A stretch of 36,313 nucleotides of DNA from Candidatus Palauibacter poriticola (GTDB lineage Bacteria > Gemmatimonadota > Gemmatimonadetes > Palauibacterales > Palauibacteraceae): assembly GCA_012270965.1 (NCBI GenBank), contig JAAXHJ010000040.1:1-36313 (forward strand), written 5' to 3'. Shown piece after piece: positions 33,604 through 36,313 of this stretch. Each line of letters opens with the position of its first letter. Positions within the stretch are counted from its first letter, which is position 1. The notes beneath the pieces are model-generated. The model did no database searches. It saw nothing but the letters and a program-made list of their open reading frames with translations, and was not told where the DNA came from. A program made the position numbers and the translations under genes.

Positions 33604-34002
33604 CTAAAGGAAGGACGGATCGAAGCCCTCGTCCCCGGAGGCCTTCTCGGCGTCTTCACGGACCAGCGTGAGAATCGCGCCTTGGGGTGCGACGAGGTAT
33701 CGGGTGCCTTCGAAGGTGATCTCCACCGCGGCCTTCCGAAAGAAGAGGGCGTAGTCTCCCGGCCGCGCCTGCATCGGGAGATAGCGGGCCTCCGTGGCGC
33801 CGATCTTCCACGGTTCGTCATCGAGTTCGGCGGGCGGCCCGACCGGAGTCCCGGGGCCGACGGCCACGACCGTCCCCGCCTGCACGGCCTGTTTGTCGAT
33901 CGCCGTGGGAGGGAGGTAGAGGCCGACGTTCGTGCGATCCTCGCCCTCCAGCGGCTCGATGAGAACGCGGTCGCCGACGACGATGAGTCTCTTCTCGCTC
34001 AA
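33604..34002 (-). CDS. GroES-like (Cpn10) protein
   Basis: A 132-residue protein with a Cpn10 fold by pattern: KRLIVVGDRVLIEPLEGEDR at the start, a flexible loop region (TNVGLYLPPTAIDKQAVQAG), then GTVVAVGPGTPVG and RPGDYALFFRKAAVEITFEG, with YLVAPQGAILTLV at the end. It is longer than GroES (about 95 residues) because of an insert after VGPG and an acidic tail. TTG 34002 is chosen since AGGAAGGG ends 4 bases before it; an upstream in-frame TTG at 34032 lacks this. No groEL is adjacent, so it is a stand-alone extra copy; whether it caps GroEL is unknown. It ends with TAG. Confidence 0.7.
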   Translation of the reverse strand: MSEKRLIVVGDRVLIEPLEGEDRTNVGLYLPPTAIDKQAVQAGTVVAVGPGTPVGPPAELDDEPWKIGATEARYLPMQARPGDYALFFRKAAVEITFEGTRYLVAPQGAILTLVREDAEKASGDEGFDPSFL

Positions 34003-34153
34003 GGCACCCTTCCTGAAGCCATCCGTTGCCAAGCAGGCCGGCGTGCCGGATCCCGTCGCCGGGGTCCGGTCGCGTCATCGGGATCCGGTCCCGCCGACCG
34101 TGGACCCGCACGATAGGGCACGCGAACGCCGCCGGACAGGCTAACGCTGACGC

Positions 34154-35281
34154 TTAGCGACTGGCCGAAATCCCATCCCCGGGGCCGGCATCGACGCGCG
34201 ACCGCTCCTCCTCCATGAGACCCTCCACGCTCTCCGGGACGAGGAGGCTGTCCGCGATGCGGGCGATCTCCTCCGCCTCGCGCCACCGCGCCTCCAGTTC
34301 CTTCAGTTCTCCCTCCAGCGCCTCGCGCTCGGCCTGCTCGTGCGTCGCCATCTCGATCGCCAGCCGCACGTCCACCTTGAGACCCCCCAGCGTACCCGGC
34401 AGGGGCGTCATCAACCCCTCGATTTTCTTTGCCGGGAGATCCGCCTTTCCCGAGCCGGAGAAGTCGCGCATGGCGCGTCTGGCCGCCCCCGGGAGGAACG
34501 CCTCCGGATGCCCGGCCTCCTCGATCCGGTCGACTGCGGCGCGGATCGCCTTCCGGGCCCCGCCGCGCCGGTTGGCGTGGGCCATGAGCTGGCCCGCGAG
34601 GCCGATCGCCTCACTACCGCGAACGATCATCGTATGTCGGCGGCTCTTGCGCTTGTTCTTCCTGTCCCGCTTTCCCCAACCCGGGATGTGATCCACGCGA
34701 AGGTCCCATCCCGAGGCATCTGCACTCGGCACGAGCCGGGAGGTGTAGAGGTGTTTTCGCTGGACGCGGATGCGGTCGCCGTCCTCGTTCCTGAGACGGA
34801 GGAGAACGCGGTCCCGATACCAGCTTTGGGCCCCTTGGAAGAGCCCCGGAAAGATGCCGCCCATCGCGAATCCGGCGAGCGTACCGCCGACGACGACTGC
34901 GCCCGCCGCCGCTCCGACGGCCCCGGTGACGAGCATGGCCCGCTTGCGGCGCCGGCCGAACTGGTCGCCGTAGCGCCACGCCGCGAACTCTTGGCGGACG
35001 GCATCGCCGACGCGGACGAGTTCGAGTCCCTCCTTCAGCTTCGCGAGGCCGATGTTGTCGGAGGCGACCCGCATGCGGGTGGTCGAGAAGGCGCGCTCGC
35101 AGGCCTCGATCGCCTCCCAGCGGGTCTCCAGCGGCGAGAGGTTCCAGCGCTCGCAGCGCCGGCACACGACCCACAGCCGGCCCTTGGCGCCGTCGAAGGC
35201 GAGGCGGCGGCCGACCGGGAACTCCTCGATGGCCTCGTTCCGGTCGAGGTTCCCGTGGCAGAAGATGCACGTCGTATACAT
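34154..35281 (-). CDS. Zinc-ribbon membrane protein of unrecognised family (copy A)
   Basis: A 375-residue protein. The N-terminus has two Cys pairs, C5-C8 (TTCIFCHGNLDR) and C40-C43 (VVCRRCERWNLSP), which look like a zinc ribbon. A conserved region follows (about 37-121), then a Gly/Ala-rich membrane segment (about 115-150, MLVTGAVGAAAGAVVVGG). The rest is soluble: RKHLYTSRLVP, AIGLAGQLMAHANRRGG, EAGHPEAFLP and a probable coiled coil (THEQAEREALEGELKELEAR, WREAEEIARIADSL). I do not recognise the family. Its ATG directly abuts the TGA of copy B with no gap, so both are translated from one message. Function unknown; a membrane-tethered nucleic-acid or protein-binding role is only a guess. Confidence 0.75.
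   Translation of the reverse strand: MYTTCIFCHGNLDRNEAIEEFPVGRRLAFDGAKGRLWVVCRRCERWNLSPLETRWEAIEACERAFSTTRMRVASDNIGLAKLKEGLELVRVGDAVRQEFAAWRYGDQFGRRRKRAMLVTGAVGAAAGAVVVGGTLAGFAMGGIFPGLFQGAQSWYRDRVLLRLRNEDGDRIRVQRKHLYTSRLVPSADASGWDLRVDHIPGWGKRDRKNKRKSRRHTMIVRGSEAIGLAGQLMAHANRRGGARKAIRAAVDRIEEAGHPEAFLPGAARRAMRDFSGSGKADLPAKKIEGLMTPLPGTLGGLKVDVRLAIEMATHEQAEREALEGELKELEARWREAEEIARIADSLLVPESVEGLMEEERSRVDAGPGDGISASR
34918..35173. repeat. Near-identical repeat, copy in gene A
   Basis: Matches 36058-36313 at an offset of 1140 bp, with a single difference (C at 34968, T at 36108; Gly to Asp in the protein). It covers codons of about residues 37-121 of copy A. The match stops sharply at the membrane segment. 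The other end cannot be seen because the window ends. Confidence 0.95.
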
Positions 35282-36313
35282 TCAGACGTTCTTCCGGACT
35301 TTCGTTGGGTTCGCCCGGCCGGCTTCGGGACGCGCGAGCTCCTCCTTGATAAAGCTCTCGATGGTGCCCGGGACGAAGAGGTTGTCGGCGATGTGCGCGA
35401 TCTCCTCCGCCTCCCGCCACCGCGCCTCGAGTTCCTTCAGTTCCCCCTCGAGCGCGTGGCGTTCGGCCTCCTCGTGCGTCGCCATCTCGATCGCCAGCCG
35501 CAGACCCGGGTTCATGCCGGCGAGGGAGCCGGGCAGGGGCTTCCGAAGCCGTTCGATGTCTCGAGCCGACAAGGTCGCCTTGCGGCGCTCCCCCCGGGAG
35601 GGAGACCGGAGAGCGAAGGAGCCTGAACGCCGGAGGGTGCGTTGCACCGCTTCCGCGGCTTCCGGGAGAAACGCCTCCGGATGCCCGGCGCGCTCGATAC
35701 GGCGCACGGCCCCGCGGATCTCGGTCTCCCTACCCCCGCGGCGGTTGGCCTGCGCCATCAGCTGTCCGGCGAGCCCGATCGCCTCGCGTCCGTGGACGAT
35801 CATCGTCTTCCGCCTGCCCCCTCCGGCATGGCCGGGAAGGTGGTGGACGCGCAGCCCCCAGCCGCATCCCTCCTCATCCGGCACGAGATGGGACGTGTAG
35901 AGGTGCTTGCGCAGAACCCGAACCGGCGCGCCGCGCCGATCCCGAGTCCGCAGGATGACGCGATTGCGATACCACCTCTGCGACAGCCTGGTCCCGATCC
36001 AGAGTCCGCCCACGGAGACAAAGCCTCCCACCCAGAGGGCCCCAACGGCGGTGGCCGCGGCCCCGGTGACGAGCATGGCCCGCTTGCGGCGCCGGCCGAA
36101 CTGGTCGTCGTAGCGCCACGCCGCGAACTCTTGGCGGACGGCATCGCCGACGCGGACGAGTTCGAGTCCCTCCTTCAGCTTCGCGAGGCCGATGTTGTCG
36201 GAGGCGACCCGCATGCGGGTGGTCGAGAAGGCGCGCTCGCAGGCCTCGATCGCCTCCCAGCGGGTCTCCAGCGGCGAGAGGTTCCAGCGCTCGCAGCGCC
36301 GGCACACGACCCA
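35282..36313 (-). CDS. Zinc-ribbon membrane protein paralogue (copy B), 5' end beyond window
   Basis: At least 341 residues; the start lies outside the window, and the apparent first codon near 36307 is internal. It has the same plan as copy A: Cys pair CRRCERWNLSP, conserved region, membrane segment (VTGAAATAVGALWVGGFVSV), RKHLYTSHLVP, AIGLAGQLMAQANRRGG, AGHPEAFLP and the charged helix LEGELKELEARWREAEEIAH. It has an insert of roughly 17 residues relative to A (SFALRSPSRGERRKATLSA region). Its first 253 visible bases differ from copy A by one base, while the remainder is clearly diverged. TGA 35284-35282 is followed at once by the ATG of copy A. Confidence 0.75.
   Translation of the reverse strand, partial: WVVCRRCERWNLSPLETRWEAIEACERAFSTTRMRVASDNIGLAKLKEGLELVRVGDAVRQEFAAWRYDDQFGRRRKRAMLVTGAAATAVGALWVGGFVSVGGLWIGTRLSQRWYRNRVILRTRDRRGAPVRVLRKHLYTSHLVPDEEGCGWGLRVHHLPGHAGGGRRKTMIVHGREAIGLAGQLMAQANRRGGRETEIRGAVRRIERAGHPEAFLPEAAEAVQRTLRRSGSFALRSPSRGERRKATLSARDIERLRKPLPGSLAGMNPGLRLAIEMATHEEAERHALEGELKELEARWREAEEIAHIADNLFVPGTIESFIKEELARPEAGRANPTKVRKNV
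36058..36313. repeat. Near-identical repeat, copy in gene B (cut by window end)
   Basis: Second copy of the repeat at 34918-35173. It runs to the last base of the window, so its full length is unknown and may extend to or beyond the start of gene B. Confidence 0.95.

Follow-up and report, generated by a model that had tools for sequence, protein, structure and literature searches.

Tandem paralogues of Candidatus Palauibacter poriticola with a near-identical N-terminal block: very probable exchange between the copies and likely fusion by crossing-over in a relative

Organization of the locus

The window analysed here, a stretch of 36,313 nucleotides, is an entire contig (C61) of the 99-contig genome of Candidatus Palauibacter poriticola (G000). 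Two tandem paralogues, gene A (downstream) and gene B (upstream), are located on its minus strand as the final two genes, and the contig stops inside B (Table 1). Gene A gave 11 matches with identities of 86-90%, spread over 10 congeneric genomes. As the initial annotation had described, the TGA of B was found to adjoin the ATG of A. The spacing was also zero in five of the six related pairs measured, and a 1-nt overlap was present in the remaining one (G010). The two genes are presumably translated together and would probably act together. A groES homologue was found downstream of A in every pair or single-gene locus of the genus whose downstream side could be examined.

The start of another contig, C41, matches the sequence that relatives have upstream of B. 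Codons 1-8 of B, which are the same as those of A, are encoded in reverse complement by the first 24 bases of C41; neither contig contains codons 9-36 (84 nt, assuming that B and A are of equal length). C41 thus carries the 5' side of B, so that B, as in the relatives, is preceded by a padR gene. Between padR and B, the intergenic DNA contains a tandem array of 8.7 copies of a 22-bp GC-rich unit (C41, L101, positions 148-338).

Table 1. Features of the A/B locus in the window (positions are those of the forward strand)
Feature	Position	Strand	Remarks
Gene A (downstream copy), 375 aa	34154..35281	-	N-terminal block with CxxC...CxxC; hydrophobic segment rich in glycine; middle domain; long helix at the C-terminus
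Gene B (upstream copy), 343 aa visible	35282..36313	-	5'-truncated at the contig end
Near-identical block, A copy	34918..35173	-	Sole mismatch at 34968
Near-identical block, B copy	36058..36313	-	Sole mismatch at 36108; reaches the contig end
Junction, B TGA directly next to A ATG, spacing zero	35279..35284	-	
A C-terminal part including the conserved helix (repeat D2)	34183..34423	-	78% identical to B overall, 88-90% over the helix
B C-terminal part including the conserved helix (repeat D2 partner)	35317..35557	-	Paired with 34183..34423
GroES-like (Cpn10) gene downstream of A	33604..34032	-	Homologue in L040: Pfam Cpn10, 3.6e-12

Protein features and family distribution

Behind its N-terminal domain, the encoded protein has a basic stretch and a hydrophobic segment rich in glycine; then come a mixed middle domain and, at the C-terminus, a long helix. 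Cysteines C5, C8, C40 and C43, arranged in two CxxC knuckles, were invariant in 18 N-domains, and the mean column identity over these 18 members, which were picked from the hits, was 81%. The pattern suggests a zinc-ribbon-like domain with putative metal binding. The whole-protein AlphaFold2 model had a mean pLDDT of 76 and a pTM of 0.63, with segment 125-143 below 50, and a Foldseek search of this model against the PDB gave 0 matches at E≤0.001. The model of the N-domain by itself was poor (pLDDT 50). In a sequence search of the PDB no function could be assigned; the best N-domain hits were viral E6 proteins (E 0.03), limited to the CxxC region. Nothing above the family cut-off (E≤0.1 where none exists) was found for A in Pfam, NCBIfam, PHROGs and PADLOC, for B in Pfam and NCBIfam, or for a B orthologue in PHROGs and PADLOC, and a plasmid search gave no match. 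Judged from these features, the product is a putative membrane-anchored protein with a cytosolic metal-binding N-domain, which may have the same partner in both paralogues.

Of the 298 genomes of the phylum that were sampled, 210 contain a relative of the family (E≤1e-10). The copy numbers per genome are to be read as at least the values obtained, at most 7 candidates having been scored in each genome. In the window genome, three genes clearly belong to the family, and one further hit is weak and partial. Its third member (L005, G000:C27:2719-3714) shows 45% amino acid identity, and similar distant copies occur in several congeners; a more divergent member is present in G006. Five-member clusters with other genes interspersed were observed in two other genomes of the order (L082 and L083). 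Both clusters are accompanied by DinB-like and M28 peptidase genes; UbiA was examined in L083 only. A literature search returned no paper combining Gemmatimonadota with gene conversion, and a term search of PMC10469786 gave no occurrence of paralog, tandem, zinc or hypothetical.

The near-identical block in the window pair

Direct comparison of both copies bore out the single-mismatch repeat that had been annotated. The block measures 256 nt, rather than the 253 nt originally given, and its only mismatch is a C in A against a T in B. Similarity drops off immediately at the low-coordinate side, while the other side is ended by the contig end. The longest exact run between A and B was 205 nt, compared with 35-60 nt in six related pairs, and was matched in none of 10,000 shuffles of the whole-gene polymorphic sites. 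No fourfold difference was present at the 48 sites compared in the N-block of this pair. The homogenised N-block was defined as codons 1-118. Outside it, the annotated divergence held for the middle part. A uniformly diverged C-terminal half was not found: the C-terminal helix, of about 40 codons, retains 88-90% DNA identity in the window pair.

The mismatch at 36108 replaces, in B, a glycine conserved in at least 90% of 30 aligned members by aspartate, and it is either real or an assembly error. The third-position GC of the window pair was 0.94/0.92 (A/B) in the N-block versus 0.83 in the middle, and GC-biased conversion was considered. The corresponding values in the congener G006 were 0.78 and 0.83, and eight other, more distant genes gave a mixed picture.

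The pair in related genomes

The pair was searched for in 17 genomes of the genus, the named relatives being MAGs. It was found in tandem in the window genome, G002, G005, G007, G008, G009 and G010, and distributed over two contigs in G012. A further pair is held by RHO1_bin_70 (L055; RHO1 below), bringing the total to eight assemblies besides the window genome. One gene occupies the same place in G001, G011 and G015 and on another contig of G009 (C95). In G006, one related gene lies next to groES, and the stretch examined contains no match to padR. G003 and G004 contain more distant copies only, and the search of the genus genomes found no match in G013, G014 and G016.

RHO1_bin_70 is titled Gammaproteobacteria, yet its locus is that of Palauibacter, with flanks about 94% identical to those of congeners; it is probably a mislabelled MAG. 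The bin of G009 contains both the pair locus (C103, L042) and the same locus in a form with one gene (C95, L043). The A gene of C95 groups with that of G001, which suggests a mixed bin.

Divergence along the genes

In the pairs of six relatives, the A/B DNA identity per 60-nt window was 82-97% in the N-block, mostly 50-75% in the middle and 83-95% in the C-terminal helix. Fourfold A-B divergence in these pairs was 95/376 (0.25) in the N-block versus 252/432 (0.58) in the middle. Between species, orthologues differed at fourfold sites by 0.23 (A-A) and 0.29 (B-B) in the N-block and by 0.29 and 0.24, respectively, in the middle. The synonymous rate of the N-block is therefore normal between species, yet the split between the paralogues is almost unrecorded in it. 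Fixed A/B differences over the six relatives numbered 1 of 354 positions in the N-block, 103 of 534 in the middle and 1 of 120 in the C-terminal helix; in larger sets the counts were 0 of 354 (8 pairs), 101 of 534 and 1 of 120 (7 pairs for both). In the N-block, 63 sites vary in A and 61 in B, and at 35 sites both genes are polymorphic with the same states; in the middle, 139 and 145 sites vary, and 39 are shared in this way.

Between other loci of the family, fourfold divergence was 0.53 in the N-block versus 0.61 in the middle (896 pairs), which indicates that synonymous sites of the N-block are free to change. In clusters of other genera, the values were 0.45 versus 0.58 for adjacent copies (27 pairs) and 0.48 versus 0.62 for non-adjacent ones (23 pairs). 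G046 is among the few pairs with a stronger signal (12/57 in the N-block versus 23/40 in the middle). Homogenisation in these clusters is weak at most.

Phylogenetic and run tests

In the tree of the C-terminal part, B stood apart from A with a support of 100. The N-block tree had A and B intermixed, and joined the two copies of the window genome (support 100) and those of G012 (83). When the N-block was constrained to two clades, A and B, the AU test gave p 0.003 with all nine pairs (SH 0.063), p 0.18 without the window genome and p 0.5 without the window genome, G012 and G008. An N-block tree in which every genome's A is joined to its own B was strongly rejected, so that the pattern is not one of simple genome-by-genome concerted evolution.

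The within-genome agreement was reached by 148 of 40,320 permuted pairings when all were included, by 148 of 5,040 without the window genome and by 50 of 720 when G012 was also left out. For the longest run, the corresponding figures were 1141 of 40,320, 1141 of 5,040 and 406 of 720. Once the window genome is excluded, the excess of agreement over permuted pairings is weak and the longest run is not significant. Nine pairs were tested for runs within the N-block: G012 had one that covers 28 of 91 polymorphic sites (nominal P 0.0047), and seven had no significant run. Whole-gene run tests, carried out on seven pairs, gave P 0.0013 for G008 and P 0.014 for G002.

Single-gene loci

At the four single-gene loci (G001, G009-C95, G011 and G015) the upstream DNA was found to match the upstream flank of B, and the gene body and downstream flank to match A; padR lies upstream and groES downstream, as in the pairs. 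The four genes occupy three places in the C-part tree. Compared with G009, the leading 16 of 31 informative N-block sites of G011 were B-type and 11 of the following 15 were A-type, ahead of an A body; the switch lies near nucleotide 186. With RHO1 as the reference, the leading 17 of 34 informative sites were B-type, and the switch was less clean against G010, G005, G007 and G008. The loci of G011 and RHO1 share 94% identity in their flanks and differ by one repeat unit. The N-block of G015 was B-type at 20 of 30 sites versus G005 and at 15 of 22 versus G008, its nearest pairs, with A-type sites near the end of the block. No clear switch from B to A was observed at the informative N-block sites of G001 and G009-C95.

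Taken by itself, flank synteny is also compatible with an ancestral locus that never had B. Such a history is less favoured, since B is a single old clade throughout the genus and since the A/B split predates its species, as the fourfold divergence of 0.58 in the middle shows when set against 0.24-0.29 between orthologues. The hybrid N-block of G011 likewise favours loss of B. Unequal crossing-over, which the initial annotation had put forward as able to fuse the genes, is thus a likely origin of the G011 gene and, to judge from the order of its site types, a probable one for G015; it is possible for G001 and G009-C95, where the expected switch was not clear. A collapse of the pair in short-read assembly is also possible for the single-gene loci.

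Discussion

The interpretation that we favour, with a probability of about 0.7, is that A and B are tandem paralogues of old origin in which the first 118 codons behave as a recombining homology island, undergoing both conversion and crossover, while the middle parts are too diverged to recombine. The divergence pattern, the missing synonymous signal of the paralogue split and at least one hybrid gene are observed. Purifying selection on the zinc-ribbon-like N-domain would keep the DNA of both copies similar, and this similarity would allow homologous recombination, presumably of the RecA type, to copy the N-block between A and B and to wipe out their differences, most lately in the window genome. 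The C-terminal helix may be a second island of this kind, less clear than the first. Crossing-over between the direct repeats, about 1.15 kb apart, would delete the body of B and the front of A and leave one in-frame gene with a B front and an A body; the other single-gene loci may have lost B in the same way.

Exchange between A and B has very probably happened. The gene conversion initially proposed is supported by the 205-nt run, the missing paralogue signal in the N-block, the shuffle tests and the shared polymorphisms. Recent exchange is clearest in the window genome and probable in G012; in these two, the N-blocks of the same genome are closer to each other than to their orthologues, a tendency that is weak in the other pairs. 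A single old event followed by a few later ones is also possible. A stricter form of this history, in which one paralogue received the N-block of the other once, at about the origin of the genus (or B originated as a chimera), and both then evolved mostly vertically, with clear recent conversion in the window genome only, is rather unlikely. Two N-block clades are not rejected once the window genome is removed (AU p 0.18), and N-block divergence between A and B at fourfold sites is scarcely lower within genomes (0.25) than between them (0.28). Against one old replacement speak the complete lack of fixed N-block differences over eight pairs and the many shared polymorphisms, the N-block run in G012 and the hybrid of G011. 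Purifying selection alone, acting on a strongly constrained N-domain without any exchange, would account for the conservation of this domain among distant members (81% in 18 sequences). It is highly improbable as the sole cause, since synonymous sites diverge between A and B by 0.25 in the N-block versus 0.58 in the middle when orthologues are alike in both, and since the N-block reaches 0.53 between other loci of the family.

It is also improbable that the result is an artefact of the window assembly, in which reads of A extended the contig end of B and produced a false identity of 205 nt. The contig end does cut the block, its terminal 205 nt are exactly those of A, and codons 9-36 of B are missing from both contigs. 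On the other hand, the block contains a mismatch, a contig break is expected inside a genuine near-identical repeat, and other assemblies show both the pair and the N-block pattern. The concern about an assembly duplication is mostly answered by the independently assembled relatives and by C41, save for the terminal 205 nt. As regards a cassette-like variable family with a shared zinc-ribbon region, as first suggested, the CxxC...CxxC region was confirmed and the variable cassette was not. A variation system in which the N-block shuffles variable output modules, as in antigenic variation, could draw on the clusters of up to five copies in other families, with conserved N-block and diverged middle, on the hybrid gene and on the short partial members of other genomes. 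We regard it as very unlikely: modules of such systems vary rapidly among close relatives, but among six relatives the middle pN was 0.05 (A) and 0.07 (B), the values against the window genome being 0.08 and 0.11, the middle parts remain with their locus, and the window genome has no evident donor stock among its few family genes.

The process is a known kind of gene evolution, here in an unstudied family. Tandem clusters of opsin and globin genes undergo partial gene conversion and produce hybrids by unequal crossing-over. The A/B locus resembles them in its domain-limited homogenisation and in a hybrid gene that probably arose from the tandem repeats, and differs in belonging to an uncharacterised putative membrane-protein family of bacteria. 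The copies of tuf are near-identical over their full length, whereas the homology of A and B stops about one third into the gene. The process presumed for A and B is the same as that described for the gene conversion of tuf in Salmonella (Paulsson et al. 2017, PMC5485169). Concerted evolution in prokaryotes, in which gene conversion keeps paralogues alike, synonymous sites included, has been discussed for genes such as the tandem fla and mtrA (Wang and Chen 2018, PMC6053082). A and B resemble these cases, being more alike in the N-block than their age predicts, at synonymous sites as well. The treatment in PMC6053082 concerns whole genes (the words 'partial' and 'N-terminal' are absent from its main text); in A and B a single domain-sized block is homogenised and the rest consists of old paralogues.

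A more speculative and rather doubtful proposal is that the N-domain is a docking module common to the phylum-wide family and that its DNA serves as a recombination platform. If this were true, a shared partner would keep the N-domain alike, and the likeness would let Gemmatimonadota make new output modules, fuse them and remove them, with the front end kept constant. The locus offers a clear natural bacterial case in which exchange is limited to a single domain and a hybrid gene arises as a by-product, and it draws attention to a putative membrane-protein family that is present in 210 of the 298 phylum genomes sampled and unnamed by the four family libraries searched.
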